NCBI GenBank assembly: GCA_017395045.1
Contig: JAFPWG010000012.1
Span: 62,001 to 126,000, forward strand
DNA from: Bacteroidales bacterium
GTDB lineage: Bacteria; Bacteroidota; Bacteroidia; Bacteroidales; UBA932
Direction of reading: 5' to 3'
DNA length: 64,000 nucleotides
Shown: positions 1,747-41,189 of the stretch, in pieces
Position numbering within the stretch: position 1 is the first letter of the stretch
Layout of the letters: each line of letters opens with the position of its first letter
The notes under the pieces: model-generated
Seen by the model: only the letters and a program-made list of their open reading frames with translations
The model's database searches: none
What the model was told of the DNA's origin: nothing
Program-made: the position numbers and the translations under genes

Positions 1747-3078
1747 CTATTTGCTTTGGCCCGATACTTTGTCCAGCAGGGCGGCGAGTTCGCGGGTAAG
1801 GTTCCGGCGGGAGAAGCGGGTGATGTCCCCGGCCACGGGCGGCACGCCGCCGGCCCGGAACTGTTCCCACGCCTGGTCAAGGAAAGCGCGCATCGCAGGG
1901 GCATTGTCCCAGCCGGCCGTAATGCCGGCGCCCGTGTCGGCGAGGACGCGGGCCATGGCCCCGTCTTCCTGGCCGATGCCGAGGACCGGCCGCCGCGAAG
2001 CGAGATATTCGAACAGTTTCCCGGGAAGGATGGGCCGGTACTCCGGATCGTTGCGCAAGGGGAGCAGGAGGAAAGAGGCGGCCATCTGCTCGCGTACGGC
2101 AGCCAGATGGTCCCGGTAGCCCAGGTCCACGACGCAGTCCCGGAGCCCGGCCGCCGCGATGGCGTCGTACACCTCGCGGTCCACCTTGCCCACCAGTCTC
2201 AGGCGCAGGGCAGCCTGGAAAGACGCGTCCTCCCGCGCCTTGTCTCCCAGGACTTTCCAGAAAACGAGCGGATTGCCGTCGGCGGCCAACAGGCCCGTGT
2301 GGACGATGTTGAAGAAGCCGTCCGGGTCCACGGTCTGGTCAAAGTCACCGCCGTCGTAGCCATTGGTGATCATCGCCACGGGTGTGGACGTCTGCGCCTG
2401 GAACTCCTCCTGCACGAGCGGCGTGACGGCCAGCACGGTGGAGCATTCGTCCAGTACGGACTGTTCCATGGCACGGAGCCTCCGCCAAGTGCCTTTCGAC
2501 AGCGGCAGGTGCTTGAGATAATACATCCGGGTCCACGGGTCGCGGAAATCAGGGATCCACGGAATCCCCAGTTCCTTGTGCAGCCGCTGCCCGATCAGGT
2601 GCATCGAATGGGGCGGACCTGTCGTAACGATCACATCGACAGGATGTTCCGTCAAATACTTTTTCAGAAAACGCACGCTTGGGCGCACCCAGCCCACGCG
2701 GGGGTCGGGCACGAACACGTTGCCGCGGATCCACAGCGACAGGCGCTGCTTGAAAGTCTTGCGGCCGCTGGAGATTTCCGTGACGGCCCCGCCGGCGGCG
2801 CCCGCCGTGAGGGTTTTCATGTCCGTCGACGCCCCCTTGCCCATCAGCTTACGGTAGAGGTTGTAAGGCTCGGTGATAGGACGGCGGATGATTTCCGTCG
2901 TATGGGGGATTTCCCCCTCCAGGGTCCGGTCCACGGCTGTGTACTCCGGATTCTCGGGAGTATAGATGACCGGCTTCCAGCCCTCCTGGGGAAGGTATTT
3001 GGCGAACTTGACCCAGCGCTGCACGCCGGAACCTCCGGACGGCGGCCAGTAATAGGTGATGACGAGCACGCGTTTCAT
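1747..3078 (-). CDS. Glycosyltransferase, GT-B fold (GT4-like)
   Basis: This is a 443-residue protein. The N-terminus reads MKRVLVITYYWPPSGGSGVQR, a pattern common in Bacteroidota family 1/4 glycosyltransferases, with a glycine-rich loop after the first strand. The C-terminal half has the donor-binding type segment LPGKLFEYLASRRPVLGIG followed by ADTGAGI. Such enzymes move a sugar from a nucleotide donor to a lipid or glycan acceptor on the cytoplasmic side; the substrate cannot be read from the sequence. It is the first gene of a two-gene operon with the YfhO-family gene. The start at 3078 is supported by a TAACTTTG -7 element ending six bases upstream, so the message may be leaderless. It is divergent from mutS. 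Confidence 0.87.
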   Translation of the reverse strand: MKRVLVITYYWPPSGGSGVQRWVKFAKYLPQEGWKPVIYTPENPEYTAVDRTLEGEIPHTTEIIRRPITEPYNLYRKLMGKGASTDMKTLTAGAAGGAVTEISSGRKTFKQRLSLWIRGNVFVPDPRVGWVRPSVRFLKKYLTEHPVDVIVTTGPPHSMHLIGQRLHKELGIPWIPDFRDPWTRMYYLKHLPLSKGTWRRLRAMEQSVLDECSTVLAVTPLVQEEFQAQTSTPVAMITNGYDGGDFDQTVDPDGFFNIVHTGLLAADGNPLVFWKVLGDKAREDASFQAALRLRLVGKVDREVYDAIAAAGLRDCVVDLGYRDHLAAVREQMAASFLLLPLRNDPEYRPILPGKLFEYLASRRPVLGIGQEDGAMARVLADTGAGITAGWDNAPAMRAFLDQAWEQFRAGGVPPVAGDITRFSRRNLTRELAALLDKVSGQSK

Positions 3079-3084
3079 AACTCA

Positions 3085-3092
3085 CAAAGTTA
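3085..3092 (-). promoter_or_regulatory. -7 element of the glycosyltransferase/YfhO operon, six bases from the ATG
   Basis: On the minus strand this reads TAACTTTG, a full match to the Bacteroidota TAnnTTTG element. Only six bases separate it from the ATG at 3078, so transcription would start at or next to the start codon. I see no clear -33 TTTG at the expected distance. Confidence 0.6.
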
Positions 3093-3104
3093 ATAAAATT
3101 ATCG

Positions 3105-3112
3105 TATCTTTG
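3105..3112 (+). promoter_or_regulatory. -7 promoter element of mutS
   Basis: TATCTTTG fully matches TAnnTTTG. It lies 25 bases before the mutS ATG at 3138, which gives an ordinary short leader. It is back to back with the divergent glycosyltransferase promoter. Confidence 0.65.
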
Positions 3113-3137
3113 TATGATTCGAATTTAGCAGGACAGT

Positions 3138-5768
3138 ATGGCGAAAATAGCGGAAGACACCCCCCTGATCAGGCAGTTTTTCGAGGTGAAGGCACAGCAC
3201 CCCGAAGCGCTCCTGCTATACCGCGTGGGGGACTTCTACGAAACCTATTCGGACGACGCCGTCACGGCGTCCCGGGTGCTGGGGCTCGTGCAAACGAAGA
3301 AATCCAATGGTGACAAGGGGCCCATCCCCATGGCCGGATTCCCGCACCACGCCATCGAGAACTATCTCACCAAACTCGTCCGCGCCGGATTCAAAGTGGC
3401 CATTTGCGACCAGCTGGAGGATCCGAAGTTCGCCAAGAAACTCGTCAAGCGCGGGGTGACGGAAATCGTCACGCCGGGCATCTCCTTCGGCGAGAACATG
3501 CTGGAAATCAAGGAGAACAATTTCCTTTGCGGCCTGGCCTTCGAAAAGGACCAGTGCGGAGCCGCGTTCCTGGACGTGTCCACGGGACAGTTCCAGGTGG
3601 CGCAGGGCTCGCTCGATTATGTCGGCACGCTGCTGGGATCGCTCTCCCCGAAGGAACTCGTCGTTCCCCGCAGCTGCGAAAGGGGCGTGAAGGAACGCTT
3701 CGGCGACTATTATACCACCAGCCTGGACGAATGGGCCTTCGTGTATGACGCGGCCGTGGAGAAACTGAAACGGCAGCTCCGCGTGGACAGCCTGAAGGGC
3801 TTCGCCGTGGACACCATGCCCCTCGGGCTCTGTGCCGCCGGCGCCCTGATGGTTTACCTGGAGCAGACGCAGCACGTCGGACTCCGGAACATCTCCACGC
3901 TCAGCCGCATCGACGAGGCCAAGTGCGTGTGGATGGACCAGTTCACCCTCCGCAACCTGGAAGTTTTCCAGAGCGCGGCGGGGCGCGAAGGCGTGTCGCT
4001 GGTGGAAACCATCGACCGCTGCTCCTCGCCGATGGGCGCGCGCCTCCTGCGCAGCACCCTGGCGATGCCCATCCTGGACCGGAAAGAGCTGGAGGGCCGC
4101 TACGACGTCGTCCAGTATTTTATCGAGCATCCCGACGACCTGCTCCTGGTGCAGGAAGCGCTCGGCAAAATGGGCGACCTGGACCGCATCCTGGGGCGCA
4201 TCGCCAACGGGAAGGCCGCCCCTCGCGAGGTGCTGCAGCTCAGCCGCGGCCTCGCGCAGATGGCCCCGCTCCGGGAGCTTTGCTCCGGCAAGGGCTGCGA
4301 TGCGCTGGACAAGCTTGTCAAGGGCCTGGTCAACTGCGAGAAACTCCTGAAGGAAATCGTCTGGACCCTGGATCCCGATCCGGCCGCCCAGATCGGCAAG
4401 GGACCTGTCATCGCCGAGGGCGTGGACGAGCAGCTGGACGAACTCCGGGGACTCTCCGGCAGCGGCAAGGACTACCTCCTCCAGATGCAGCAGCGGGAGG
4501 CCGAACGCACCGGCATCCCCTCGTTGAAAATCGCTTACAACAACGTTTTCGGATACTATATCGAAGTCCGTAACACCTTTAGGGACAAGGTCCCGCCCGA
4601 GTGGATCCGCAAGCAGACGCTCGTGAGCGCCGAACGCTACATCACCGAGGAGCTGAAGGAATACGAGGAAAAGATCGTCACGGCCGAAAGCCGCATCTAC
4701 GAAATCGAGACGCGCATCTTCGCGACCCTCATCGCCCATATCCAGGACGGCATCACGGCCATCCAGAGGAACAGCCGCATCCTCGCGAAGCTGGACCTGC
4801 TCGCGGGTTTTGCCGAACAGGCAGCCGAGCGACATTACTGCCGGCCGGAAATCAATGATTCCCTGGTCCTTGACATCAAAGCCGGGCGCCATCCCGTCAT
4901 CGAGACGCTCATGAAGGCGGGCGAGCAGTATGTGCCCAATGACGTGTACCTAGACTCCAAGTCGCAGCAGATCATCATCCTGACGGGTCCCAACATGGCG
5001 GGTAAGTCCGCCCTCCTGCGGCAGACGGCCCTCATCGTCCTGATGGCGCAGACGGGGTCCTTCGTCCCCGCCGACGCAGCAAAGATCGGATACTTCGACA
5101 AGATATTCACCCGCGTGGGTGCGACGGACAACATCTCCCGCGGCGAGTCCACCTTCATGGTGGAGATGCTGGAGACAGCGATGATCCTCCACAACCTCAG
5201 CGCCCGCTCGCTGGTCCTCCTGGACGAAATCGGCCGGGGAACCTCCACCTACGACGGTATGTCCATCGCCCGCGGCATCGTAGAGTACATCCACGAATGC
5301 GGCAAGGGCGCGAAGACCCTCTTTGCCACGCATTATCACGAACTGAACGACCTGGAGGGCATTTTCCCGCGCGTGAAGAACTTCCATGTGACGGTCAAGG
5401 AAGTGGGGCGCGAAGTCATCTTCCTGCGCAAGATCAAGGAGGGCGGTTCGGCCCACAGCTTCGGTATCCACGTGGCCCGGATGGCGGGCATGCCCGCTCC
5501 GGTGCTGGAAAGCGCCGAGCGCACGCTGAAGGCCCTGGAGAACAGCCAGGCCCTGGAGCGCGCCGGCGCCCTCACTCCCGTCAAGCCGCACAACACCAAG
5601 GAAGGCCGCGTGGAAAAAGACGGCACCCTCCAACTGTCCATGTTCCAACTGGACGACCCCCTGCTGGAGTCCCTGAGGGACCGCCTCAAAGGCCTGGACC
5701 TCAACAACATGACCCCTCTCCAAGCCTTCGATGCCCTGCGGGCCATGAAAGACGAGCTGGGGGTTTAG
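3138..5768 (+). CDS. mutS: DNA mismatch repair ATPase MutS
   Basis: This 876-residue protein has the usual length for MutS1. The mismatch-reading motif GDFYE is at residues 31-35, with the Phe and Glu that contact the mispaired base. The connector, lever and clamp domains follow. The C-terminal ABC-type ATPase has Walker A GPNMAGKS near residue 617 and Walker B/signature DEIGRGTSTYDG near residue 697, then an ATHYHEL switch segment. It binds mismatches as a dimer and recruits MutL. No mutL is present in the window. Transcribed alone from its own promoter, it ends at a strong hairpin terminator before the convergent alkaline phosphatase gene. Confidence 0.98.
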   Translation: MAKIAEDTPLIRQFFEVKAQHPEALLLYRVGDFYETYSDDAVTASRVLGLVQTKKSNGDKGPIPMAGFPHHAIENYLTKLVRAGFKVAICDQLEDPKFAKKLVKRGVTEIVTPGISFGENMLEIKENNFLCGLAFEKDQCGAAFLDVSTGQFQVAQGSLDYVGTLLGSLSPKELVVPRSCERGVKERFGDYYTTSLDEWAFVYDAAVEKLKRQLRVDSLKGFAVDTMPLGLCAAGALMVYLEQTQHVGLRNISTLSRIDEAKCVWMDQFTLRNLEVFQSAAGREGVSLVETIDRCSSPMGARLLRSTLAMPILDRKELEGRYDVVQYFIEHPDDLLLVQEALGKMGDLDRILGRIANGKAAPREVLQLSRGLAQMAPLRELCSGKGCDALDKLVKGLVNCEKLLKEIVWTLDPDPAAQIGKGPVIAEGVDEQLDELRGLSGSGKDYLLQMQQREAERTGIPSLKIAYNNVFGYYIEVRNTFRDKVPPEWIRKQTLVSAERYITEELKEYEEKIVTAESRIYEIETRIFATLIAHIQDGITAIQRNSRILAKLDLLAGFAEQAAERHYCRPEINDSLVLDIKAGRHPVIETLMKAGEQYVPNDVYLDSKSQQIIILTGPNMAGKSALLRQTALIVLMAQTGSFVPADAAKIGYFDKIFTRVGATDNISRGESTFMVEMLETAMILHNLSARSLVLLDEIGRGTSTYDGMSIARGIVEYIHECGKGAKTLFATHYHELNDLEGIFPRVKNFHVTVKEVGREVIFLRKIKEGGSAHSFGIHVARMAGMPAPVLESAERTLKALENSQALERAGALTPVKPHNTKEGRVEKDGTLQLSMFQLDDPLLESLRDRLKGLDLNNMTPLQAFDALRAMKDELGV

Positions 5769-5810
5769 GAAAAAGCCGGAAAAAGATAACGTAGAATATT
5801 GATAAGATTT

Positions 5811-5842
5811 GGGGACGACTGTCTGTCGTCCCCTCTTTTTTA
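5811..5842 (+). terminator. Rho-independent terminator of mutS
   Basis: A perfect 9-bp stem, GGGGACGAC (5811-5819) with GTCGTCCCC (5825-5833), encloses a 5-base loop and is followed by TCTTTTTTA. It sits between the convergent mutS and alkaline phosphatase genes, and the T-run serves the plus strand. Confidence 0.88.
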
Positions 5843-7258
5843 TCAGTCCCGTTTGTAACCGGCCAGGGCGGCGATCGTCGGCGCGATCTCCGTGTTGTCC
5901 CGGATACCGACGAAGGCCTCCTGCCCTTTTCCTTTCACGTACAGGCCCACGGGAGAACCCGAGTGGGAGCCATAGCTCCATTGGTAACCAGCAGCCTTGT
6001 CCAGGTAAATCACCGCTTCGGATACCATCTTCGAATTCACAGAATAGAGGTTGACGGTTTCCAGGTTGCGGTTGCCACCCTTTCCGAAGGTCTGCTCATA
6101 GATGTCCTTCAGGCCGGCCTCGGACCTGGCACTCACGGGAACGCTGTCCCAAAGACCTAAATGCTTTGCAAAGAAGGCCTTGACCTGTTCCCAGGAGGGC
6201 GCCTTGTAGGGTTTGTCGTCCGGGAAGAACTCCTCGCGGAAGAGTTCGGTGAGCACGGATGCAGAGGCTTTCTGGGCGGCGAGCAATTCCGGATGCATCT
6301 CGTACTGACCTGCACCCAGCATCAGACCGCCGGTCTCATGGTCGGCCGTAATGACGATGAGCGTCTCGTCGGGATGTTTCTCATAGAAAGCAAGCACGAC
6401 GTCGATAGCGGACGCGAAGTCCGTCAGTTCCTGGAAGCAGGCGGCGGCGTCATCGCTGTGGCCGCCGTAATCGATCTTGCCACCCTCGATCATGAAGAAG
6501 AATCCTTTCTTGCCGAAACGGGCGTCCAGATAGTCGATCCCCGCCTGGACGAAGTCGGACAAGGTGGTGTCATCCTCCTTCCTGTCAATGGCATAGGGAA
6601 GGTCCACCTCGTCCTTGCCGCTCAGGCACAGGACGCGCCCCTCGACAGAAGCAACCCCGTCGAACGACGGTCCGTGGAGAACGGTGATGCCTGCTTCCCG
6701 GGCCAGGTTCTCAAAGTAAGCCCCGTCGTGACCGGTACCCTTTTCCGTGATGATTCCGGCACCGGCGGCAAAATCCACGGGCGTTTCAATATACTGGGTA
6801 ACGATGGTCTCGTAGTTGCGGCGCTTTTCCGTATGGGCCACGAAACAGGCCGGCGTAGCGTGGTTGATGCCCACGGATGTCGCGATGCCAACTCCGTATC
6901 CGGCAGCACGTGCCCAGTCCGCCACGGACGAGACAGCAACGGTGTCCGCATTCACGCCGATGGCGCTGTTATAGGTCTTCACCCCGCTGGAGAGGGCGGT
7001 CCCGCCGGCAGCGGAATCCGTAACCAGCGACGAGGACGACACGGTGGTGACGAAGCCCCGCACCGGGAAGTGGGCGAAATTGATTTCCTCCGGACCGTAG
7101 CCGGTTCCCTGGTTGTACAATTCGGTGCCAATCACCTCGTTGATGCCCATGCCGTCTCCGATCAGATAAAACACATACTTGACCTGCGGTTTCTGTCCAC
7201 AGGCGCTCAGTCCCAGCATCAAAGCCGTGACAATCAGGGTTTTCAGGGTCTGTTTCAT
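5843..7258 (-). CDS. Alkaline phosphatase, PhoA superfamily, lipoprotein
   Basis: This is a 471-residue protein. The N-terminal signal ends in LGLSAC, a lipobox, so it is probably lipid-anchored on the periplasmic side or at the cell surface. IGDGMG near residue 34 carries the first metal-binding Asp. VTDSAAGGTAL holds the phosphorylated Ser of the DSA motif. IEGGKIDYGGHSDD and TADHETGG supply further zinc ligands. This is the full PhoA-family metal set, so it should hydrolyse phosphomonoesters. It is the last gene of a minus-strand run, 28 bases after a sodium symporter gene. It may use the upstream thyA promoter, which would be an odd mixture of functions. Confidence 0.93.
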   Translation of the reverse strand: MKQTLKTLIVTALMLGLSACGQKPQVKYVFYLIGDGMGINEVIGTELYNQGTGYGPEEINFAHFPVRGFVTTVSSSSLVTDSAAGGTALSSGVKTYNSAIGVNADTVAVSSVADWARAAGYGVGIATSVGINHATPACFVAHTEKRRNYETIVTQYIETPVDFAAGAGIITEKGTGHDGAYFENLAREAGITVLHGPSFDGVASVEGRVLCLSGKDEVDLPYAIDRKEDDTTLSDFVQAGIDYLDARFGKKGFFFMIEGGKIDYGGHSDDAAACFQELTDFASAIDVVLAFYEKHPDETLIVITADHETGGLMLGAGQYEMHPELLAAQKASASVLTELFREEFFPDDKPYKAPSWEQVKAFFAKHLGLWDSVPVSARSEAGLKDIYEQTFGKGGNRNLETVNLYSVNSKMVSEAVIYLDKAAGYQWSYGSHSGSPVGLYVKGKGQEAFVGIRDNTEIAPTIAALAGYKRD

Positions 7259-7286
7259 TATCTTGTCATTTTAGTATGCATAAAAC

Positions 7287-8648
7287 CTACAGGACCAGGT
7301 TCGTCACGAATACGACGGCGATTCCCACGGGGGCGACATACCGGAGCAGGAACCACACGAAGTTGAACAGGCGGACGTTTCCCTTGAGAGTTCCTCCGTT
7401 CGTGAATTCGTCGAAAACGTCGGGGCGGGCCATTTTCCAGCCCACAAACAGAGTGAACAGCAGGCCGCCGGCCGGCAGGAGCCAGTCGGAGCACAGCTTG
7501 TCCAGGAAGTCGAAGATGCTGTTGCCCAGGAGCTTAACCTCCGCCAGCGGACCGAAGGAGAGGCTGCAGAGCACGCCCACCGTCCAGGCAAAGGCGGTGA
7601 TGGCCAGTACGGCTGTGGCTCGCTTGAGGCCCTTTTCCTCCGTCAGGTAAGCGACGCCCACCTCCATCATCGAGATGGCGGACGTCAGGGCCGCCACGAG
7701 GATGGTCAGGAAGAAGACGATGGCGATGGCTGCGCTGAGCCAGGGGGCGCCTGCTCCCATCTTGTTGAATATGAACGGCAAAGTGTCGAAGACCAGGCCG
7801 GGACCGGCGCCGGGGGCGATGCCCGCGGCGAATACGGCCGGCATCACGGCGAAGCCCGCCAGGATCGCGAACAACAGGTCGGAGACCGCCGTACCGACGC
7901 CAGACAGGAATATGTTCTCGTCCTTACGCATGTATGAGGCGTAAGTCAGGATAGTGCCGACGCCCAGGGAAAGCGAGAAGAAGGCCTGCCCCATCGCGGC
8001 TGCGACTGCGTGCGCATCGACCTTGGAGAAATCCGGTTTGACCAGGTAGGCGACGCCCTCCTTCGCCCCCGGAAGGGTGACGGAATAGATGGCGATGACG
8101 ACGATCAGCACGAACAGGACCGGCATCGTCACTTTGGTAAACCGCTCGATTCCCCGCTTGACCCCGGCCAGGACGATGCCCGCAACCAGGAGCATGAAGA
8201 TGGTATGGACCGCGATCGGCCCGCCCGAAGAAGAGATGAAGGCCCCGAAGAAGCCCTGGATACGCTCCGGCGGCGTGTTCGTAAAGTCCAGGCACACAGC
8301 CTTGTACAGGTATTCCACCGACCAGCCTCCCACGACGCTGTAATAGCTCAGGATGATAATAGGGGCGAAAACGGTCAGCAAGCCCAGCCACTTCCATCCC
8401 GTTCCGGGGGCAAGTTTCTCCATCGCCCCGAACGTGCCCTGGCGGCTGCGGCGGCCGATAATGGTTTCTGCAAAGAAAATGGGAAGCACCAGCACGAAAC
8501 TGGCGACCATGTACAGGATGATAAAAGCCGCGCCACCGTGCTCACCCACCATGTACGGGAAGCGCCAGATGTTCCCCAGGCCCACGGCCGATCCGGCCAT
8601 GGCCATGATCACCGCAAAGCGGCTGCCGAAATGTTCGCGCTCACTCAT
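7287..8648 (-). CDS. Sodium-dependent transporter, NSS/SNF family (second copy)
   Basis: A 453-residue protein if started at the ATG at 8648; an upstream in-frame start exists, but it lies inside the preceding gene. The ATG overlaps the upstream stop as ATGA, which supports this start and translational coupling. The TM1 signature GSAVGLGNIWRFPYMVGEHG is the unwound Na+/substrate-binding segment of LeuT-type transporters. About 11-12 hydrophobic segments follow, including the SYYSVVGGWSVEYL region of TM3. Substrates are usually amino acids or similar amines, but none can be assigned here. It is a paralogue of the gene directly upstream, with near-identical layout, so tandem duplication is likely. 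Confidence 0.93.
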   Translation of the reverse strand: MSEREHFGSRFAVIMAMAGSAVGLGNIWRFPYMVGEHGGAAFIILYMVASFVLVLPIFFAETIIGRRSRQGTFGAMEKLAPGTGWKWLGLLTVFAPIIILSYYSVVGGWSVEYLYKAVCLDFTNTPPERIQGFFGAFISSSGGPIAVHTIFMLLVAGIVLAGVKRGIERFTKVTMPVLFVLIVVIAIYSVTLPGAKEGVAYLVKPDFSKVDAHAVAAAMGQAFFSLSLGVGTILTYASYMRKDENIFLSGVGTAVSDLLFAILAGFAVMPAVFAAGIAPGAGPGLVFDTLPFIFNKMGAGAPWLSAAIAIVFFLTILVAALTSAISMMEVGVAYLTEEKGLKRATAVLAITAFAWTVGVLCSLSFGPLAEVKLLGNSIFDFLDKLCSDWLLPAGGLLFTLFVGWKMARPDVFDEFTNGGTLKGNVRLFNFVWFLLRYVAPVGIAVVFVTNLVL

Positions 8649-10488: not shown

Positions 10489-10491
10489 AAA

Positions 10492-11292: not shown

Positions 11293-11300
11293 CAAAGATA
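11293..11300 (-). promoter_or_regulatory. -7 element of thyA, six bases from the ATG
   Basis: The minus strand reads TATCTTTG, then six bases, then the thyA ATG at 11286. This predicts a transcript with almost no leader. Confidence 0.6.
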
Positions 11301-11321
11301 CATATTTTCCGTATAAATCGT

Positions 11322-11329
11322 TATATTTG
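11322..11329 (+). promoter_or_regulatory. -7 element of galM
   Basis: TATATTTG matches TAnnTTTG, 27 bases before the galM ATG. It is divergent from the thyA promoter, about 20 bases away. Confidence 0.6.
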
Positions 11330-13382: not shown

Positions 13383-13390
13383 CAAAAATA
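13383..13390 (-). promoter_or_regulatory. -7 element of the thioredoxin-fold lipoprotein gene
   Basis: On the minus strand this reads TATTTTTG, matching TAnnTTTG, 20 bases upstream of the ATG at 13362. Confidence 0.5.
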
Positions 13391-13403
13391 CGGAAAAAAT
13401 ATT

Positions 13404-13411
13404 TAGTTTTG
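13404..13411 (+). promoter_or_regulatory. -7 element of the HEXXH/barrel gene, seven bases from the ATG
   Basis: TAGTTTTG matches TAnnTTTG and ends seven bases before the ATG at 13419. A TTG at 13378 could be the -33 element. Confidence 0.55.
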
Positions 13412-17956: not shown

Positions 17957-17988
17957 TTTGCCGTTCCACGGAATTATTCCTATCTTTG
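17957..17988 (+). promoter_or_regulatory. Promoter of the SurA-like/OstA operon, six bases from the ATG
   Basis: TTTG (17957-17960) and TATCTTTG (17981-17988) are separated by 20 bases, the classic Bacteroidota -33/-7 arrangement. Only TAAGTT lies between the -7 element and the ATG at 17995, so the transcript should be nearly leaderless. The promoter lies just beyond the IS30 remnant. Confidence 0.72.
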
Positions 17989-28235: not shown

Positions 28236-28243
28236 CAAATATA
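28236..28243 (-). promoter_or_regulatory. -7 element of galK
   Basis: The minus strand reads TATATTTG, a full TAnnTTTG match, 27 bases before the galK ATG and just past the end of the nuclease gene. Confidence 0.6.
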
Positions 28244-29185: not shown

Positions 29186-29193
29186 TATCTTTG
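29186..29193 (+). promoter_or_regulatory. -7 element of the blaI operon, four bases from the ATG
   Basis: TATCTTTG ends four bases (CACC) before the ATG at 29198, the shortest such gap in the window. Confidence 0.65.
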
Positions 29194-32030: not shown

Positions 32031-32085
32031 GGTTTTGCTGTATCAATAATCATCTGCCTTTCCGTGTGCCTTGGCGCCCGTGGCG

Positions 32086-32586: not shown

Positions 32587-32595
32587 AGAACGCCG

Positions 32596-33561
32596 CTATA
32601 AATATAGATTATTTTCTATTGAAAGACCAACCTCCAGCAGGATGGGCAGATGGTCGGAGACGCCGCCGACATGGCGGGGGCCGGTATAGGTGCGGAGCGG
32701 TTTTTCGCCGGAATGCGCCGTGTCGCGCGCGAGAAGGAAGGGAATACGCAAGATCCGCATGCCGGAGTACGGGGCCAGGGCCGGGGATACATAGAAATGG
32801 TCGATGAGGTCCCACTTGCCGTCATACTTGATTGTCCCCAAACCCCGTCTTTGCAGGCCCAGGTGCTTCGGTAACAACGCCGGCTCCAAAAGCCGGAAAA
32901 CGGGATTGTCGGGCGTGTCGTTGAAATCTCCCCCGGCGACGATCCGGTCGATGCCGAGGGCAGCGAGCGAATCTGCCAGGAACCGCAGCCTTTCGACCGC
33001 GATGCGCCGCCGCGGTTCCGATTCAGCCACTCCTCCGTATTTTGAAGGATGGTGGTTCACCAGAACGGCGAACACCGTGGAGTCCCTCTGGAACACACAC
33101 AGAAGGATATCGCGGGTTGTCATCACCGTGTCCCGGGCATACAGGTGGCAGGGTTTGGAATCCAGAAGCTCCAACCGGGAAGACCGGTACAGCAAGGCAA
33201 CGTCGATTCCCCGCCGGTCGGGGGAATCAAAATGCACATACTTGTAGTCCAGTTTCCGAAGTGCGGTCTTCTGCAGCAGCTGCCGCAAGACAAACGCATT
33301 CTCAACCTCTTCCAGGCCGATGATGTCCGGTGGCCGCCCCGTCTCCTGTTCCACCCATAACAGCGCCTTTGCAAAGGCATTCGCCTTCGCTTGGAACCGC
33401 TTCCAGGACCAACGGCGCTCACCCCCTGCCGAAAACTCCCCGTCCGAAACCGTCGTGGAATCGTTCCGCCAGTCGAAGAAGTTCTCTACGTTCCAGCACA
33501 ATATGGACAGGCTGTCTCCCGGAGACAAGAACAACCAGATTAACAGAAACAACGTTCTCAT
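32596..33561 (-). CDS. Endonuclease/exonuclease/phosphatase-family protein
   Basis: This 321-residue protein has a short hydrophobic N-terminus (RTLFLLIWLFLSPG) that may be a signal peptide. The EEP fold motifs appear in order: SILCWNVENFF, IIGLEEVEN with the metal-binding Glu, RRGIDVALLYR, VNHHPSKYGG, GGDFNDTPDN and GVSDHLPILLE with the catalytic Asp-His. Such proteins are metal-dependent phosphodiesterases or nucleases; a secreted nuclease is plausible. Upstream on the minus strand, TAACTTGG (one mismatch to TAnnTTTG) lies four bases from the ATG. Confidence 0.88.
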   Translation of the reverse strand: MRTLFLLIWLFLSPGDSLSILCWNVENFFDWRNDSTTVSDGEFSAGGERRWSWKRFQAKANAFAKALLWVEQETGRPPDIIGLEEVENAFVLRQLLQKTALRKLDYKYVHFDSPDRRGIDVALLYRSSRLELLDSKPCHLYARDTVMTTRDILLCVFQRDSTVFAVLVNHHPSKYGGVAESEPRRRIAVERLRFLADSLAALGIDRIVAGGDFNDTPDNPVFRLLEPALLPKHLGLQRRGLGTIKYDGKWDLIDHFYVSPALAPYSGMRILRIPFLLARDTAHSGEKPLRTYTGPRHVGGVSDHLPILLEVGLSIENNLYL

Positions 33562-33640
33562 ATGCCCAAGTTAAGACAGGATGCCGCTCCCCGGGGCAAG
33601 AAACGTAAAAATGTGGCGAATTATTCCCGGTTGTTTCAAA

Positions 33641-33681
33641 TAAAAAAAATAACGCCACCCTACAAACGTAGAATGGCGTTA
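33641..33681 (-). terminator. Rho-independent terminator after ychF
   Basis: On the minus strand TAACGCCA pairs with TGGCGTTA (33650-33657 with 33674-33681), with an inner CTAC/GTAG pairing, and is followed by a run of eight T (33642-33649). It ends the ppiD-ychF transcript ahead of the EEP nuclease gene. Confidence 0.88.
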
Positions 33682-33699
33682 ACCGTTGCTCTTCGGAGC

Positions 33700-34803
33700 C
33701 TAGACGTTGAAGAGGAAGTGCATGATGTCTCCGTCCTGGACGACATAGTCCTTGCCTTCGATGCCCATCTTGCCGGCGGCACGGACGGCTGCTTCGGTCT
33801 TGTAGTGCACGAAGTCGTCGTACTTGATGACTTCCGCGCGGATGAATCCGCGCTCGAAGTCAGTGTGGATGACGCCGGCGGCGCGGGGCGCCTTGTCGCC
33901 CACGCGGATGGTCCAGGCGCGGCACTCGTCGGCGCCGGCCGTAAAGAAGGTCTGCAAGCCCAGGAGACGATAGGCGCCCTGGATCAGGCGGACGACGCCG
34001 GACTCTTCCAGGCCCATTTCTTCGAGAAACATCTGACGGTCCTCATATTCTTCAATCTCCGCGATTTCCGCTTCGGTCTTGGCGGCGATGACCAGGATTT
34101 CGGCCTGTTCGTCGGCCACGGCGGCGCGGACCGCATCGACATACGCATTGCCCGTGGCGGCGGATGCCTCGTCCACATTGCAAACGTACATGACTGGCTT
34201 GTTCGTCAGCAGGTACAGGTCGTGCGCCATCTGCTCTTCTTCGGCATTCTCGGGAACGACCGTCCGGCAGGATTTGCCCTGGAGCAGGACCTCGCGATAC
34301 CGCAGGAGCAGCGCCAGGAGTTTCTTCGCCTCTTTGTCACCACCCGTGGTAGCCTGCTTCTCCACCTTTTTGATGCGGTTTTCGACCGTCTCCAAGTCCT
34401 TGATCTGCAGTTCAGTATCTACGACTTCCTTGTCACGGACCGGATCCACGGAACCGTCCACATGGACAATGTTTCCGTCGTCGAAACAACGAAGCACGTG
34501 CAGGATGGCGTCGGTTTCCCGGATGTTGGCAAGGAACTGGTTGCCCAGCCCCTCCCCCTTGGAGGCCCCCTTCACCAGGCCCGCAATGTCCACGATTTCC
34601 ACCGTGGCGGGAATCGTCCTCTTGGGCTGGCAGATTTCCGTCAGCACCTCCAGGCGCTTGTCGGGCACATTGGTGGACCCCACATTCGGATCGATGGTGC
34701 AGAAGGGGAAATTCGCGCTCTGCGCCTTGCCGGAGCTGACGCAGTTAAACAAAGTGGACTTCCCAACGTTGGGAAGTCCCACTATTCCACATTTCAAAGC
34801 CAT
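33700..34803 (-). CDS. ychF: Obg-like ATPase YchF
   Basis: This 367-residue P-loop protein has G1 GLPNVGKSTLF at residues 9-19, the switch region DIAGLVKGASKGEGLGN, and a G4 position of the altered type that makes YchF prefer ATP. A coiled-coil insertion (residues about 125-190) and a C-terminal TGS domain (FERGFIRAEVIKYDDF) follow. It is linked to ribosome and stress functions. The start lies three bases after the ppiD stop, so they are co-transcribed, and a strong terminator follows the stop. Confidence 0.97.
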   Translation of the reverse strand: MALKCGIVGLPNVGKSTLFNCVSSGKAQSANFPFCTIDPNVGSTNVPDKRLEVLTEICQPKRTIPATVEIVDIAGLVKGASKGEGLGNQFLANIRETDAILHVLRCFDDGNIVHVDGSVDPVRDKEVVDTELQIKDLETVENRIKKVEKQATTGGDKEAKKLLALLLRYREVLLQGKSCRTVVPENAEEEQMAHDLYLLTNKPVMYVCNVDEASAATGNAYVDAVRAAVADEQAEILVIAAKTEAEIAEIEEYEDRQMFLEEMGLEESGVVRLIQGAYRLLGLQTFFTAGADECRAWTIRVGDKAPRAAGVIHTDFERGFIRAEVIKYDDFVHYKTEAAVRAAGKMGIEGKDYVVQDGDIMHFLFNV

Positions 34804-34806
34804 AGA

Positions 34807-36876
34807 CTAGAAGAATCTGGCCCGGTTGTCCTTGACCCCGGCGTCGTCCATCATCACGGGAACGAGCATCTGGACGCCGTAATTCAGGATCTGGGCGTTG
34901 GCGTTCTTGGCGTCGCTCTCGGTGTAGAAGGAACCGGTTTCGCGGCCGAGAACCTTGAACAGATACACGCCGTAGGAGCCCGCCACCGGACCGGAAATCT
35001 CGCCTTCCTTGGCGGAAGCGATGGCACCGACGAACTTCGGATCCAGGCTGCGGGCGGACATCGCGGCGAAGGCGACGTCGTTCTGCGTGCTCACGGTGGT
35101 TCCGAGCTTCTCGGCGATGGCCTCCAGGTCGGTCATGCCGGCAATCTCAGCGGCAACCTCGCCCTGACGCTTTTCGGCGTACTTGTCAGCATAAAGCTGA
35201 TTCTTGATGGAGTTGGACACCTCGGCGACCGGGGCGATTCCTTCCTTATGGGCATCCTTGACGGCGACCACGAAGAAGTAGTTGTTGTCCACGGTGATGA
35301 TGTTCGAAACCTTGCCCGGCTTGTTGTCGAAAGCCCAGCGGGTGACCTCCTTGGCGTGGCCGATGGAACCGTAGGTGTCCGTGGCCTCGTTGATGGTCAG
35401 GTTGTGGGAGTACGTGCCGATGGAGTCGCAGGCAGCGCGATAGTTCGCAAGTTTGCCGGCGGACAGGGTGGCAAGACGGTTGGCGTCGTTGTAGTACTTG
35501 TTGAAGGTCTCCTTGCTGGGAACGGCCTCCTTCTGGAACACGGCCACCTGCTTGAAGAGGGCGGGATCGGAAGCCTCGGTCACCTCCACCACGTGGGTGG
35601 AATTGGTGGACTGGAGGACGAACGGCTGGCCCACCTTCGCGGTGAAGAGAGCGTCGAATCCGGCAGGCAGGTAGGAAACGGTCGCCTGGGAGACGGACCC
35701 CACCTTTCCGAACTCGCCGTCGGCGGCGGAGTTGCGGTCCAGGGAGAACTCATTGGCCAGGGCGGAGAAGTCGCCACCCTTCTTGAGCTCGTTCAGCAGG
35801 CTGTCGGCCAGGTGCTGGCCGTCGGCGTTGGCCGGGAACATCATGTGACGGAAGGTGACAGTCTCCGGCATCGTGGCGGAAGCCATGATGCGGCCGGCGA
35901 CGAAGGTGTTGCCCTGCGTATACATCGGGGAAACGCCGGTGGCGTTCTCGGCGACGAAGGCGTCCAGGTCGGCATTGACGGCCTTGAGGTCACCCGCCTT
36001 GTACCAGCGGTCGCTCCACTGGACATCGGAATTGCGCTGCAGGAAAGCGCGGACGTTGTCGACCACGCCGAACTCCTCGTACTGCTTCACGAAGTCGTCG
36101 TTCGTCGCGGAAATGTCCTCGGCGGAAGGAACAACCTGGAACACGGCATATTCAATGTCGCGCGTGGCCTCCGTCTTGAAGAACTTCTTGTGATTGTTGT
36201 AGTAGTCGACGATCTCCTTGTCGGAGACGACCACGGTGCTGTCCATCGCAAAGCTGAAGGGAACCATCACGAATTCCACGTCGGCGGTGGTGTTGTTGTC
36301 GGCGATGGAACGGTTCACCTGGATGGCGTTCTCGATGTTGGAGTTCGCAAACAGGGTGTTGTACTTGTTGTAGTACTGGGAAGTCAGGACGGACTCCTGG
36401 AGATAGTCCCAGATGAGCTTGGCGTTCGGATCCTCATCCTTTTCCTGAAGGAACGCGAGGAACTGCTCGGATTCCGGGAACAGGGAAGAGACGACCGGGG
36501 AGACGTTCTCGCCGTTCAGCAGGTCCTTGAGTTCGGCCTTGCCCACGGTGATGCCGGCGGCCTGGGCGTTCTTGATGAACAGGTTCTGGTCCACGAAATG
36601 CTGCCAGGCGGCATCGCGAACCTGCTTCTGCTGCTGCTCGTTGGAAGAAGAGTTGCCGGAGAGGATTTCGCTGATGCGGGAATAACGGTCGGTCGCTTCC
36701 TGGAAATCGGTATAGGAGACGGACTTGTCGCCCACCTTGCCGACGTCATACTTGGAGGAAACGGACTGAACCGTCTGGATAATCTGGCTCGGGTCGATGA
36801 TGAACAGGAGGAGCGGGAGGGCAACCAGGATGGAAAGCACGATGCCCCAGCCGCGAAGTTTCTCTAAAACTGCCAT
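34807..36876 (-). CDS. PpiD-type membrane-anchored peptidyl-prolyl isomerase/chaperone
   Basis: This 689-residue protein has a short cytoplasmic N-terminus, a single membrane span (about residues 11-27, IVLSILVALPLLLFIID) and a large periplasmic part. The SurA-type N-terminal chaperone region includes VGKVGDKSVSYTDFQEATDR. A parvulin domain near residues 340-440 has TFRHMMFPANADGQHL and FSALANEFSLDRNSAADGEFG. A second isomerase-like repeat follows towards the end. PpiD helps exported proteins fold after the Sec channel. It follows lptC with a 77-base gap and precedes ychF by three bases. Confidence 0.93.
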   Translation of the reverse strand: MAVLEKLRGWGIVLSILVALPLLLFIIDPSQIIQTVQSVSSKYDVGKVGDKSVSYTDFQEATDRYSRISEILSGNSSSNEQQQKQVRDAAWQHFVDQNLFIKNAQAAGITVGKAELKDLLNGENVSPVVSSLFPESEQFLAFLQEKDEDPNAKLIWDYLQESVLTSQYYNKYNTLFANSNIENAIQVNRSIADNNTTADVEFVMVPFSFAMDSTVVVSDKEIVDYYNNHKKFFKTEATRDIEYAVFQVVPSAEDISATNDDFVKQYEEFGVVDNVRAFLQRNSDVQWSDRWYKAGDLKAVNADLDAFVAENATGVSPMYTQGNTFVAGRIMASATMPETVTFRHMMFPANADGQHLADSLLNELKKGGDFSALANEFSLDRNSAADGEFGKVGSVSQATVSYLPAGFDALFTAKVGQPFVLQSTNSTHVVEVTEASDPALFKQVAVFQKEAVPSKETFNKYYNDANRLATLSAGKLANYRAACDSIGTYSHNLTINEATDTYGSIGHAKEVTRWAFDNKPGKVSNIITVDNNYFFVVAVKDAHKEGIAPVAEVSNSIKNQLYADKYAEKRQGEVAAEIAGMTDLEAIAEKLGTTVSTQNDVAFAAMSARSLDPKFVGAIASAKEGEISGPVAGSYGVYLFKVLGRETGSFYTESDAKNANAQILNYGVQMLVPVMMDDAGVKDNRARFF

Positions 36877-36953
36877 TTTATGTTCTAATTTTTAAATATT
36901 TCTTCAAAATTCAGTCAAGGGTGCGAATTTAGTGATTTTCTTTCAATTCACCA

Positions 36954-37766
36954 CTATTTTTTTCGCGGGGAGGGCCTTTTCGTCGTATTTTTGGAAGTTT
37001 TTGCGCGCCCCCTCGAGGTTCTGGGGGTGGTTTTGGTCGCTTTGGTCTTCTTGGTACCCTCCTGCTTCACCGCCGGCGGAGCGGCGGGTTTCGCCTGGCG
37101 GGCTTCCCGTGCGATCTGGGCCGCCCGGGCCCGGGCCACGCTGGCCGGCGGGAACGGGCCGATGAAATTGACTGAATCCAGTACGACCTTGGTGGAATCC
37201 TGCTCCACCACGCCGTAACTGTTGAAGGGACGCTGGATGATGGCGTTGCGCGCCATCTCGTCGGACCTCATCCCGAAGCCCTGCATGAAACCGGAAGGAG
37301 AGTACATCTTGATGTAGCAGTCGGTCCAGATTTCCTTGGCTTTCTGGTCCCAGTAGAGGGTGTCGGTCTCCATCGTCTCCTGTTTGACGATGTTCCGGAC
37401 CACGACACTGCCGAATACCGACCATTTTTCGTCCTTCCCGTCCTTCCGGTAGTCGTGACGGGCCTTCCGGGCCTTGATGGTGGTTTCCAGCGACCCGTTT
37501 TCGGCATAACCGTACACGGACATTCCTTCCGGGAACAGGTCGACGGACATTGTATCCCGGTCATATACCTCCATTACAGGGGCCTCCACGCGCATTTTCA
37601 GCAATCCGTTCTCCGTCTGGATGAAGAACATGCTGTCCACCCGCTGGAGCGGCGTTTCCGACAGGTCCAGTTTCTCGGCTTCCGACAGGTTTCCCTTACA
37701 GGAAAAGACGACGAAAGCAACCGCCAGCGCGGTTGCCGTCGTCGTCAATATGCGGATGCGGGCCAC
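36954..37766 (-). CDS. lptC: LptC-like LPS export protein with basic C-terminal tail
   Basis: This 270-residue protein uses a GTG start at 37766, three bases after the TPR gene stop and behind an AGAAG stretch. The N-terminus has a lipobox-like VVFSC near residue 23, so it may be lipid-anchored rather than spanned by a helix. The LptC jellyroll shows in MFFIQTENGLLKMRVEAP, ETTIKARKARHDYR and WTDCYIKMYSPSGFMQGFG. From about residue 205 the chain becomes Ala/Lys/Arg/Pro/Thr rich and ends KRPSPRKK. It should pass LPS from the inner-membrane transporter to the OstA-like protein. The tail is not part of the usual fold. Confidence 0.85.
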   Translation of the reverse strand: MARIRILTTTATALAVAFVVFSCKGNLSEAEKLDLSETPLQRVDSMFFIQTENGLLKMRVEAPVMEVYDRDTMSVDLFPEGMSVYGYAENGSLETTIKARKARHDYRKDGKDEKWSVFGSVVVRNIVKQETMETDTLYWDQKAKEIWTDCYIKMYSPSGFMQGFGMRSDEMARNAIIQRPFNSYGVVEQDSTKVVLDSVNFIGPFPPASVARARAAQIAREARQAKPAAPPAVKQEGTKKTKATKTTPRTSRGRAKTSKNTTKRPSPRKK

Positions 37767-37769
37767 TTC

Positions 37770-39107
37770 TTACCGGGTGCGGACCGTCGTGGTGGTGGTC
37801 ATACCGCTGCAGGAGACCGTGTAGATCTGGCCCTTGCTCAGGTCGTACATGAAGATCTCGCTGGCTTCCGGATAGTAGATGCTCACCTTTCCGATGGCGG
37901 AACGGGCGTCGTCCGCAAGGCTGCTGTCGGCGGCCATCGCCTTCTGATAGTAGTCGGTGGCGGCCCAGTAGCGGGCGTACTTGTTCACGTCGCCGCCGCA
38001 GGAAGCGGAGGACCAGAGGTTACCCATGATCATGTAGGCCTTGCCGGCATAGCCGTTGTCCAGGCGGACCGCCTTTCCGGCGGCGTCGAAGGCGCGGCTG
38101 CGCATGTTGTTCGCATAGCAGAAGCGGGCGAGTTCATACAGGTACTGGGCATCCAGGATGTCGTCGGACTCATCGTAGTCGATGGCCTCTTCCAGGTACT
38201 TGCAGGCGTCGGCCACGTTGCCGCGGGCGGCATTCAGCTTGAACAGGCCATAGGCACTCTTGTAGGACGGATCGTTCTTGTGCATCTGGGTCACGGCCTT
38301 GAAATAGAGGTCGTTGTTGGCGCAGTCGTCGGCGCTGTTCATCAGCTTCACGATGTTGGTGATGACCGCCATGTTGTTCGGATCGGCCTCGAAGCGCGGC
38401 GTGAAGATAGCGATGAGGTTGTCGCAGGACGCAACCTTGCTGTCAGCGAAGACGCTCTCGATGGTCGCCTTGGTCTTGAGGTTGTCCTCGGCCTCGGCGT
38501 CGTTCTTGGCGGTGGCGCCGTTGATGGCCTCGGTCACCTTGTCATACATGTTGATCACGTCGTCCGCCTGGAGCTTGCCTTCGCGATACAGGTTGATGGC
38601 CGCCTGGAGGTTGTTCACCAGGAGACCGCCCTTGGTCTCGCTGCCCAGTTCGTTGATGATCGCCGGGAGGTTGTCATACAGGTACTGGGAATTCTCGCTG
38701 CGGAAGTTGATCATATACTGACCCTTGTTGTTCAGGATCGTGGCCTTCTGGTCCACGCCCTTCGGGGTGCGCGGATAGAACTGGAGACGCTGGTCCTGCA
38801 GGGTGAGCAGGGTGTCCACCAGGGCGTTGAAATAGGTGGCGTTTTTCCGGTTCTTGCCGATTTCACGGTTGATGAGGGTGGAACCGTGGACGAACAGGTT
38901 CTGCGAAGCCGTGGCCGGGCAGATCGCGTAAGCCTTCCTCCAGTTCGGGAGGGCGGAATCATAGTTCTTCTGCTTGTAATACTCCTGATAGTAGGAGAGA
39001 TACTTGATGCACTCTGCACTGTCGGCGCCGTACTTGCCCTGGGCAGAAGCATTCTGGCCCACGAAGGCTGCCATGGCAGCGAGAAGGATGAAGGTCAACT
39101 TTTTCAT
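37770..39107 (-). CDS. Exported TPR-type protein of the coaX-lptC-ppiD cluster
   Basis: This 445-residue protein has a signal peptide ending NASAQ near residue 23. The mature chain is helical with TPR-like repeats: YYKQKNYDSALPNWRKAYAI near the start and GNVADACKYLEEAIDYDESDD with further repeats after about 290. It ends with a Cys/Thr-rich SCSGMTTTTTVRTR. It lies between the outer-membrane protein and lptC genes, a neighbourhood common in Bacteroidota, so a role in envelope assembly is plausible but unproven. Confidence 0.85.
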   Translation of the reverse strand: MKKLTFILLAAMAAFVGQNASAQGKYGADSAECIKYLSYYQEYYKQKNYDSALPNWRKAYAICPATASQNLFVHGSTLINREIGKNRKNATYFNALVDTLLTLQDQRLQFYPRTPKGVDQKATILNNKGQYMINFRSENSQYLYDNLPAIINELGSETKGGLLVNNLQAAINLYREGKLQADDVINMYDKVTEAINGATAKNDAEAEDNLKTKATIESVFADSKVASCDNLIAIFTPRFEADPNNMAVITNIVKLMNSADDCANNDLYFKAVTQMHKNDPSYKSAYGLFKLNAARGNVADACKYLEEAIDYDESDDILDAQYLYELARFCYANNMRSRAFDAAGKAVRLDNGYAGKAYMIMGNLWSSASCGGDVNKYARYWAATDYYQKAMAADSSLADDARSAIGKVSIYYPEASEIFMYDLSKGQIYTVSCSGMTTTTTVRTR

Positions 39108-39140
39108 ATCGTTAGAATTTTGTATTGTTTCACATGCATT

Positions 39141-40445
39141 CTACTGGTACTGCGGCTTCCGGAACCAGATGTCGAAAATGTTGAATCCGACGTGGAAACC
39201 GACGTAATTCTCTTTCACGAACGCGGTTCCGAAACCCCTTTGACCCAGGTCTAATGCAAAGGTAATGCCGTTGTAGCCCTGGAAAACCGGAATCGTCATG
39301 CCGAGGGTGATTCCGGCCGCCGCCAGATTCTGTCCGTCCACCTGGTAATAGGACTGGTCCCAATAGGCTCCGAACCGGTAGGTACAGCGTTTCAGATAGT
39401 AACGGATATCGTTGCGGTTCGGGGTAATCTCGAACCCCGCCCTTACCGACTGGGCGACGGAAGACTTGAAGGAATAGGTACCGTTGTTCCGGAATCCACG
39501 GACGGCGTCGAAGTTGCTGCCGGACCAGTCGCTCCGGAGGTAATCCACTTCCATGGACCATCGGTCTCCCTGGTTATAAGCCAGTCCGAAGCCCATCTCG
39601 TCAGCGATGGAAATGTGGTCTTCCTTCAAATCGTGGCTGCCCAGGTTCATTTCGGAGATCGAACTGTATTCGACGGCCTGTCCGGAAATGTTCGCCTTGA
39701 GCCGGTAGGTTGCACCCAAGGTGAATCTTCCCGCCCTGCCGACGGGCTGCTCGTACTGGAGGCCGAATTTGGCCGTATGTGCCCGCAGCTGGAGGGTATC
39801 CCCCATGGCCTGCGTCCGATAACTTGCATCGCCGAACGAACTGGTGGAATACTTGCTGATGTTTCCGAACATCAGGTTGTACTGGGCTCCCAGGGAAAGC
39901 CGGTTCCAAAGGAGGACGGAGGCTCCCGCAAAGAACTGGTTCAGCCCGCCGTCGCCGGCCGCGGAATAAGCGCGGTTACCGGTATAGCCGATGCTCTGGT
40001 CTCCGCTGGAAATCTTGTCCACATAGGACATCGAGAAGCCGGTGTCGCTGAAAGGCTGGACGCCGATCATGAAGGCGGTCTTCCTCCACATCGGGAAGGA
40101 AATGACGAAATCGTGGAGGTTGAAGACGGGTTTCGCTCCCTTCAGGTCGCCCTGGCGGAACAGGGAGGCTTTTCCATACAGGCCGAAATCGGCCATGAAG
40201 GACAGGGAATCGCGGGCGGTGATGGAAGCGGGATTCATCGTATTGACGAAGCGCCGGTTGCGCGTGGCGACGCCCACGCCGCCCATCGAGGCGTTGAAGG
40301 CGGAACCCGCCGGATGAAGGTCGCCGATTCCGTACACGGAATAAGGCGAATACCCCGTATATGTCCCATTCTGAGCATGCAACGGCAGCCCCGCCAGCAG
40401 CAGGACAGCCACGATCCACACCCTATCTATCAATCTTCTTGACAT
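39141..40445 (-). CDS. FadL-like outer-membrane beta-barrel protein
   Basis: This 434-residue protein has a signal peptide ending LPLHAQ near residue 25. The early segment NTMNPASITARDSLSFMADF resembles the FadL-family N-terminus. The rest is alternating-residue beta strands rich in Tyr and Gly, ending with hydrophobic strands near YVGFHVGFNIFDIWF. Its start lies inside the 3' end of coaX (23-base overlap), so translation is probably coupled. The family transports hydrophobic compounds or acts in envelope biogenesis; the exact role is unknown. Confidence 0.82.
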   Translation of the reverse strand: MSRRLIDRVWIVAVLLLAGLPLHAQNGTYTGYSPYSVYGIGDLHPAGSAFNASMGGVGVATRNRRFVNTMNPASITARDSLSFMADFGLYGKASLFRQGDLKGAKPVFNLHDFVISFPMWRKTAFMIGVQPFSDTGFSMSYVDKISSGDQSIGYTGNRAYSAAGDGGLNQFFAGASVLLWNRLSLGAQYNLMFGNISKYSTSSFGDASYRTQAMGDTLQLRAHTAKFGLQYEQPVGRAGRFTLGATYRLKANISGQAVEYSSISEMNLGSHDLKEDHISIADEMGFGLAYNQGDRWSMEVDYLRSDWSGSNFDAVRGFRNNGTYSFKSSVAQSVRAGFEITPNRNDIRYYLKRCTYRFGAYWDQSYYQVDGQNLAAAGITLGMTIPVFQGYNGITFALDLGQRGFGTAFVKENYVGFHVGFNIFDIWFRKPQYQ

Positions 40446-41151
40446 ACTCGTCAGCCATTAATGCCAACCCCATCATCACGAGGTTACAAATTACAAAGAT
40501 GGAACTTTTCATCCGTTTTGCAAAATAATTCGCGTCGCCGCCGGTAAATACGGCGATGTTCTCCGGACGCAGTCCAAGGTACCCTTCAATTTCAAATTGT
40601 ATGCCTGAAACGACGCCGCTTTCCAGCGAAGAGGTCTCGGATGTACCCAAAACTTCGCAGGTTTCCGGCGTGTTCACCAGGGGCAGGGCGCGGGAGTAGC
40701 GGTTGAGCGCCTTGAACCGCGTGCGGCAGCCGAGGGACACGTTTCCGCCCACATACATTCCGTCCTTGTCCGTGAAATCGACGCTCAGGGTGGTACCGAA
40801 ATCCACGATGGTACACCCCATTCCACGGAACAGGTAACGTGCCGCGACGACGGAAGCTGCACGGTCATAGGAAAGGTAAGCCGGAAGTCCGTGACTGAGA
40901 AGAAGTTCCCTATGGTCCTTATCGAGAAGAAGGAAGTGTTTGCACTCCTGCGAAAGGAGTTGCCGGTCAGATTCCGAAAGCGGATAAACCGAACAAACCA
41001 CCATCACGAGCGGCTTTTCCTTCCGGGTGAGGGAAAGGGTGAAATCCATCCATTTCTCCCCCTGGTAACGGAAGGTTTTCCCGAGGGTCATCCCGTCGGA
41101 CCAGGCCGCCTTCAGCGCGGTGTTTCCTATTTCGACCAGTAAATTGGACAT
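40423..41151 (-). CDS. coaX: Type III pantothenate kinase
   Basis: With the ATG at 41151 the protein is 242 residues, a normal length for CoaX. A TACATTTG element six bases upstream supports this start; the longer open frame would run into mfd. ASKHA-fold motifs are LLVEIGNTALKAAWSDG (phosphate 1), DRAASVVAARYLF, IVDFGTTLSVDF and GGNVSLGCRTRF, with IAVFTGGDANYF towards the end. It makes 4'-phosphopantothenate, the first step of CoA synthesis, and needs a monovalent cation. It leads the minus-strand coaX-OMP-TPR-lptC run. Confidence 0.95.
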   Translation of the reverse strand: MSNLLVEIGNTALKAAWSDGMTLGKTFRYQGEKWMDFTLSLTRKEKPLVMVVCSVYPLSESDRQLLSQECKHFLLLDKDHRELLLSHGLPAYLSYDRAASVVAARYLFRGMGCTIVDFGTTLSVDFTDKDGMYVGGNVSLGCRTRFKALNRYSRALPLVNTPETCEVLGTSETSSLESGVVSGIQFEIEGYLGLRPENIAVFTGGDANYFAKRMKSSIFVICNLVMMGLALMADEYVKKIDR

Positions 41152-41157
41152 AGTCTG

Positions 41158-41189
41158 CAAATGTAGCAATAATCCGGGGTTATTGCAAC
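41158..41189 (-). promoter_or_regulatory. Promoter of coaX, six bases from the ATG
   Basis: The minus strand has TACATTTG (41158-41165), then six bases, then the ATG. GTTG at 41186-41189 is at the expected -33 distance and lies in the last bases of mfd. Confidence 0.65.

Follow-up and report, generated by a model that had tools for sequence, protein, structure and literature searches.

Promoter elements four to nine bases before the start codon point to leaderless initiation in a Bacteroidales genome and some of its relatives

How is a gene transcribed and translated if its promoter ends only a few bases before its start codon? This question is raised by a stretch of 64,000 nt (hereafter the window) from the genome of a Bacteroidales bacterium, the host (GenBank assembly GCA_017395045.1, contig JAFPWG010000012.1, positions 62,001 to 126,000), in which the Bacteroidota -7 promoter element TAnnTTTG precedes several genes by a gap of only 4–7 bases, the gap being the number of bases between the last G of the element and the ATG. 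The initial annotation of the window listed six such sites, a one-mismatch version in front of an EEP nuclease gene, and a second group of genes with the element at the distance of an ordinary leader, and we found all of them as described (Table 1). From the spacing and context of these elements over the genome we are confident that the near ones are genuine -7 elements of the Bacteroidota sigma-A promoter, which would give mRNAs with leaders of 0–5 nt that are translated by a leaderless route, the same promoter serving with leaders elsewhere and leaders of about 5–9 nt being avoided.

The host genome comprises 2.67 Mb in 42 contigs, of which 864 kb (the window and 40 other stretches) were read, with genes called by a codon-model script that is blind to promoters. 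Of 683 called genes, 33 were dropped because they had no usable start or less than 120 nt upstream, and the remaining 650 were divided into 340 with an upstream intergenic space of 40 nt or longer, which were kept, and 310 with a shorter one. In front of the 340 genes the exact element, in its revised consensus TAHHTTTG, occurs 31 times at gaps of 4–9, never at 10–14, and 87 times at 15–40. The genome-wide scan of distances that the initial annotation had proposed yields a peak at short gaps and an empty zone before a leadered hump. The "narrow clustering at 6" described there holds as a short-gap cluster but not in its narrowness, as the elements are spread over gaps 4, 5, 6, 7, 8 and 9 (5, 3, 7, 7, 6 and 3 cases, respectively). 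About a quarter of the recognizable near-gene promoters stand 4–9 bases before the start codon (31 of the 120 exact elements at gaps 0–40, or 31 of 150 at gaps 0–100).

Chance can be ruled out as the cause of the near elements by three comparisons. At gaps of 4–8 there are 28 exact TAHHTTTG, against a mean of 0.76 and a maximum of 5 in 200 dinucleotide shuffles; the whole genome, taken without any gene calls, contains 199 matches to TANNTTTGN{3,8}ATG and only 38 to the same pattern read backwards; and the window contains 23 TAnnTTTG where 13.3 are expected, a number reached by 2 of 100 shuffles. The same two-class shape recurs (counts at gaps 4–9, 10–14 and 15–40) in the congener G009 (14, 0 and 20), in G091 from a sister genus (15, 1 and 24) and at thyA loci (4, 0 and 4). 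When the elements at gaps 4–19 from the host, G009 and G091 are pooled, only one of 86 falls at 10–14 (P = 4e-13 under a crude uniform model). In G027, a genome of family f4, the counts are 6, 4 and 45, with no departure from the uniform model at gaps 10–14 (p 0.24).

The near elements also look like real promoters in their surroundings. We pooled the host, G009, G091 and 17 thyA loci, which gave 64 near elements (followed by 62 ATG and 2 GTG start codons) and 135 leadered ones, and found that the base profiles at positions -40 to -1 before the element correlate between the two classes with r = 0.84; when the near windows were shifted by 4–14 nt in 500 trials, the correlation had a mean of 0.19 and a maximum of 0.47. 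The AT content of the 40 nt upstream is 0.64 for near and 0.65 for leadered elements, against 0.54 in other intergenic windows. A second exact -7 element at a gap of 15–100 is present in only one of the 31 near genes of the host, another having one at a gap of 107. Near-class genes more often have a T at position -1 before the start codon (47/64, against 67/134 in the leadered class and 144/402 in other genes), which fits a pyrimidine-A start step with transcription beginning on the A of the ATG. In the genome G000 the looser pattern TA...T peaks at gaps of 6–10, and TAnnTTTG at 4–8 itself matches TA...T with a gap larger by two bases; TANAAT shows no peak there.

An AT enrichment at -13 has been reported for start regions of Bacteroidales (PMC3155529), and one might regard the near TAnnTTTG as a version of this AT-rich patch, i.e. 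as an element of translation initiation in mRNAs that start further upstream. The exact TAHHTTTG is, however, enriched far beyond what dinucleotide composition gives, and it is the leadered-like profile upstream of it, together with the scarcity of a second -7 element, that led us to reject the translation-enhancer reading as the main explanation; we consider it very unlikely. A comparably low probability attaches to the idea that the near elements, though real promoters, play a secondary part, and that the main mRNAs carry leaders and come from promoters further upstream that have a weaker consensus or use other sigma factors. Only exact -7 matches were scored and 222 of the 340 genes fall in neither class, which speaks for such promoters, but a leadered element lies within 60 nt in just one of 21 near-class lepA and uvrB genes of congeners (lepA of G006), and in 10 of the 31 near genes of the host the intergenic space measures only 41–70 nt.

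Even more remote, in our estimate, is that the start codons were mis-called, with the real starts downstream and the leaders of ordinary length. The counts do come from a coding-potential caller of our own making, and at least one gene was mis-started by it, the EEP nuclease being placed at 33354 instead of 33561. This caller does not see promoters, however, and the peak is present in the raw pattern counts as well. In ten near-class proteins chosen for their recognizable N-termini, the NCBIfam family models start at residue 1–9 in all ten and at residue 1–4 in eight: ThyA 1, LepA 2, UvrB 2, IspF 2–4, CoaX 3, PolA 3, GreA 3, MurI 4, FolP 7 and RlmN 9, of which GreA scores just below the cut-offs and CoaX passes the broader model only. 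Mis-called starts as a general cause are rejected by these N-termini.

Is the short gap kept in orthologous genes? BLAST searches with host genes against stretches of other genomes yielded only a small number of usable orthologues of near genes (within the family 4 near, 1 leadered, 6 unmarked and 4 in operons; 1 near in G027), and lepA and uvrB were therefore looked up in each genome in turn. Among 25 congeners, host included, lepA was readable in 22, with the element at a gap of 5–9 in 11, at 19–21 in 7 and no exact element in 4. In three of those counted as near (G009, G022 and G023) the homologous ATG stands at a gap of 12, 15 and 14, whereas an in-frame ATG two codons upstream is at 6, 9 and 8 (L216, L211 and L210, respectively). 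This upstream ATG was picked by the promoter-blind caller in G009 and chosen by us in G022 and G023; in G007, where an upstream in-frame ATG would give a gap of 13, the downstream ATG at 19 was kept. Since all these choices avoid the void, lepA is no independent proof of it. The lepA start in G009, G022 and G023 may need to be moved to the upstream ATG. The suggestion in the initial annotation that leaderless initiation would change how starts are to be called in this lineage finds support here as a possible effect, and the three cases suggest that gene callers built on the expectation of a leader may put starts in the wrong place.

Among 14 other families, 3 have lepA in the near class (gaps 5, 6 and 7), 6 have it leadered at 25–49, and 5 have it unmarked. 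For uvrB, readable in 24 of the 25 congeners, the gap is 4–8 in 10, 16–22 in 5 and 42 in one, with 8 unmarked, and in 12 other families there are no near cases, 3 leadered and 9 unmarked. Comparison of near against the rest between the genus and the other families gives p values of 0.085 (lepA) and 0.008 (uvrB); hence other parts of the order also have the near state at some genes, but this genus has it more often. The thyA orthologues are of little help: those at L042 and L048 keep the gap of 6, and many lie directly behind another gene.

The short-gap habit is lineage-specific but patchy, even inside the genus, and it recurs elsewhere in the phylum. We counted TANNTTTG followed by ATG in whole genomes at gaps of 4–7 (P), 10–13 (V, the valley) and 21–24 (L, leadered), a genome passing if P/V > 1.4 and p < 1e-4, with the proviso that P/V is more sensitive in GC-rich genomes owing to their lower background. 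The host has P 147, V 55 and L 145, and 17 of its 24 nearest congeners pass (median P/V 2.52). In a sample of 99 genomes of the family, host included, 32 pass, namely 8/8 in genus g37, 8/9 in g30, 5/8 in g31, 5/8 in g22, 3/9 in g20, 1/3 in g28, 1/1 in g18 and, from its own genus, the host as the only one; the profile is flat in g25, g35 and g36, and in g29 V exceeds P. None of 16 other families of the order, with one genome each, passes (median P/V 1.08). Of 197 genomes of the phylum 16 pass: 8/8 of family f40, 2/2 of f26, 2/7 of f19, 1/18 of f21, 1/5 of f22, and single genomes of f23 and f24. The share of the short-gap excess, (P-V)/((P-V)+(L-V)), is 0.51 in the host, 0.53 in the 24 nearest congeners pooled, 0.32 in 8 further congeners, 0.69 in g37 and 0.09 in the 16 other families. 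As to the position of the host, its ThyA is up to 90% identical to that of Bacteroidales metagenome-assembled genomes, several of them from ruminants, and 87% identical to that of Candidatus Cryptobacteroides faecavium. Set beside congeners and sister genera without the habit, the host offers a natural comparison of both routes on the same genes.

As a separate observation, two genomes of g29 (G052 and G070, same family) contain 434 TANNTTTG-ATG at gaps of 10–13 and 285 at 4–7, which is the reverse of the pattern in several sister genera; the gene-call sample there amounts to 69 kb.

What would follow for the mRNAs? RNA polymerase is expected to start about 5–6 nt downstream of the -7 element, which would place the 5' end at the start codon or 0–5 nt before it. 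In Flavobacterium johnsoniae many start sites are reported 4–5 nt past the G of the -7 element (PMC6847099), and with this spacing gaps of 4–9 predict leaders of 0–5 nt, and gaps of at least 15 predict leaders of at least 10 nt. Leaders of 0–5 nt at the near-class genes are thus very likely. Such mRNAs would be translated by the leaderless route, in which the 5'-terminal AUG is recognized by ribosomes carrying the initiator tRNA, and the other genes of the host would use the same type of promoter with leaders of about 10–35 nt. The void at gaps of 10–14 would correspond to leaders of about 5–9 nt, presumably more than the leaderless route tolerates and less than the leadered one requires, and it directly predicts the shortest usable leader. 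Ribosomes of Bacteroidota are reported not to recognize Shine-Dalgarno sequences (PMC10783764), which would make the loss of a leader cheap.

Several observations weigh against this interpretation. With a spacing of 4–5 nt, only gaps of 4–5 (8 of the 31 genes) would be strictly leaderless, and gaps of 6–9 would leave 1–5 nt; the "second, leaderless mode of initiation" proposed in the initial annotation is supported in the form of predicted leaders of 0–5 nt, but not as strict leaderlessness at gaps of 6–9. Near-class genes have a purine at -3 more often than leadered ones do (52/64 and 78/134, respectively), and a strictly leaderless message would not need one. TTG at -33 is not clearly enriched (9/31 near and 28/87 leadered elements, 8/40 in a coding control); this element is reported as weak in F. 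johnsoniae too (PMC6847099). No difference in predicted folding over the first 40 nt was found between near and leadered genes (p 0.39). If the homologous ATG alone is considered, 2 of the 22 lepA genes fall into the void (gaps 12 and 14), and the void could also have causes on the side of the promoter. The initial annotation had spoken of the lineage as a whole; the habit is genome-wide in the host, but its extent is patchier than that, as 7 of the 24 nearest congeners lack the peak by the P/V criterion, and none of the 8 further congeners passes (P/V 1.17–1.64).

On a more tentative note, to which we give slightly less than an even chance, initiation in these bacteria could be a two-state affair, in which each promoter is either near enough to the start codon to serve the leaderless route or set back by another 10 nt or so at the least, a leader of about 5–9 nt being forbidden. 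Orthologues would then switch state from one congener to another, and the leaderless one may have expanded independently in several lineages of Bacteroidota because a phylum that does without Shine-Dalgarno pairing would lose little by it.

Leaderless genes are known from other phyla, among them those of Mycobacterium (PMC4633059) and those of Actinobacteria and Deinococcus-Thermus in general, for which TANNNT was reported about 10–12 nt before the start (Zheng et al. 2011, PMC3160421). As far as these accounts go, the host has in common with the latter that the promoter abuts the start codon, that a sizeable fraction of the genes is concerned, that starts are ATG or GTG and that the arrangement is partly conserved in orthologues, and it differs in the element, which is the Bacteroidota TAnnTTTG instead of TANNNT. 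In the survey of Zheng et al., one Bacteroidetes/Chlorobi genome out of 37 has leaderless genes (2.4%). With the sigma-A (sigma-ABfr) promoters of Flavobacterium and Bacteroides the host shares the -7 consensus and the AT-rich upstream region (PMC6847099, PMC9723704, PMC7366714). According to the same group of papers, 87% of the leaders in F. johnsoniae exceed 10 nt, 5.5% of the F. psychrophilum transcripts are leaderless and about 3.7% of the B. thetaiotaomicron leaders are shorter than 10 nt, i.e. mapped transcripts of these bacteria are mainly leadered, whereas in the host 31 of the 120 elements within 40 nt stand at a gap of 4–9 by sequence. Thus, many mRNAs of the host probably have their 5' end on the start codon or hardly before it, a situation much rarer in its mapped relatives in the phylum. 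Family f40, from another class of the phylum, resembles the host in the excess of a promoter-like element a few nt before ATG (P/V 3.1 pooled over 8 genomes). In G239, the one genome of f40 sampled (L141-L147 and L168-L176, a small sample), the signal is broader, with 15 TANNNT at gaps of 5–7 of which TAnnTTTG makes up only a part, and this breadth places it closer to the Actinobacteria/Deinococcus kind. A Bacteroidales lineage rich in leaderless genes was not reported in the titles or abstract openings among the open-access PMC matches listed; what would be new here is leaderless initiation on the Bacteroidota sigma-A promoter.

The elements of the window are collected in Table 1. The consensus TAHHTTTG fits five of the six exact near elements, the exception being that of the HEXXH/barrel gene, whose third-position G is disfavoured. 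Pfam and NCBIfam models back the names of the glycosyltransferase, blaI, coaX, thyA, galK, thioredoxin-like and EEP nuclease genes, and no Pfam match was found for the HEXXH protein or for the first protein of the SurA-like operon. Two further genes we take, from their translations, to be galM and ruvB.

Table 1. Near and leadered -7 elements in the window (coordinates in nt from its first base)
Gene	Class	Element	Position (strand)	Gap	Gene start	Remarks
glycosyltransferase	near	TAACTTTG	3085..3092 (-)	6	ATG 3078-3076	Pfam Glyco_transf_4
thyA	near	TATCTTTG	11293..11300 (-)	6	ATG 11286-11284	ThyA model 1-264 on residues 1-264
HEXXH/barrel gene	near, -7-like	TAGTTTTG	13404..13411 (+)	7	13419	weakest of the six
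SurA-like operon, first gene	near	TATCTTTG	17981..17988 (+)	6	17995	
blaI-type repressor	near	TATCTTTG	29186..29193 (+)	4	29198	Penicillinase_R on residues 5-117
EEP nuclease	near, one mismatch	TAACTTGG	33566..33573 (-)	4	ATG 33561-33559	Pfam Exo_endo_phos_3
coaX	near	TACATTTG	41158..41165 (-)	6	ATG 41151-41149	type III pantothenate kinase; excluded from the genome count (intergenic space 31 nt)
mutS	leadered		3105..3112 (+)	25	3138	name as in the initial annotation
galM	leadered		11322..11329 (+)	27	11357	presumed name
thioredoxin-like	leadered		13383..13390 (-)	20	13362	
galK	leadered		28236..28243 (-)	27	28208	
ruvB	leadered		44598..44605 (+)	25	44631	presumed name

Some of these elements form back-to-back pairs at divergent genes, of the form CAAAnnTA-N-TAnnTTTG, with spacers of 12, 21 and 13 nt at 3085-3112, 11293-11329 and 13383-13411, respectively. 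A bias of divergent pairs towards one near and one leadered element was sought, and the counts (23 mixed, 3 near-near and 16 leadered-leadered) are about those of independence. Genome-wide, back-to-back pairs are frequent at divergent genes, and their spacers cluster near 12, 22, 32 and 43 nt, with a best period of about 9.9 nt (62 pairs with spacers of 5–50 nt; none of 5000 uniform draws was as strong), and a similar spacer pattern is seen by eye in G027, which belongs to another family.

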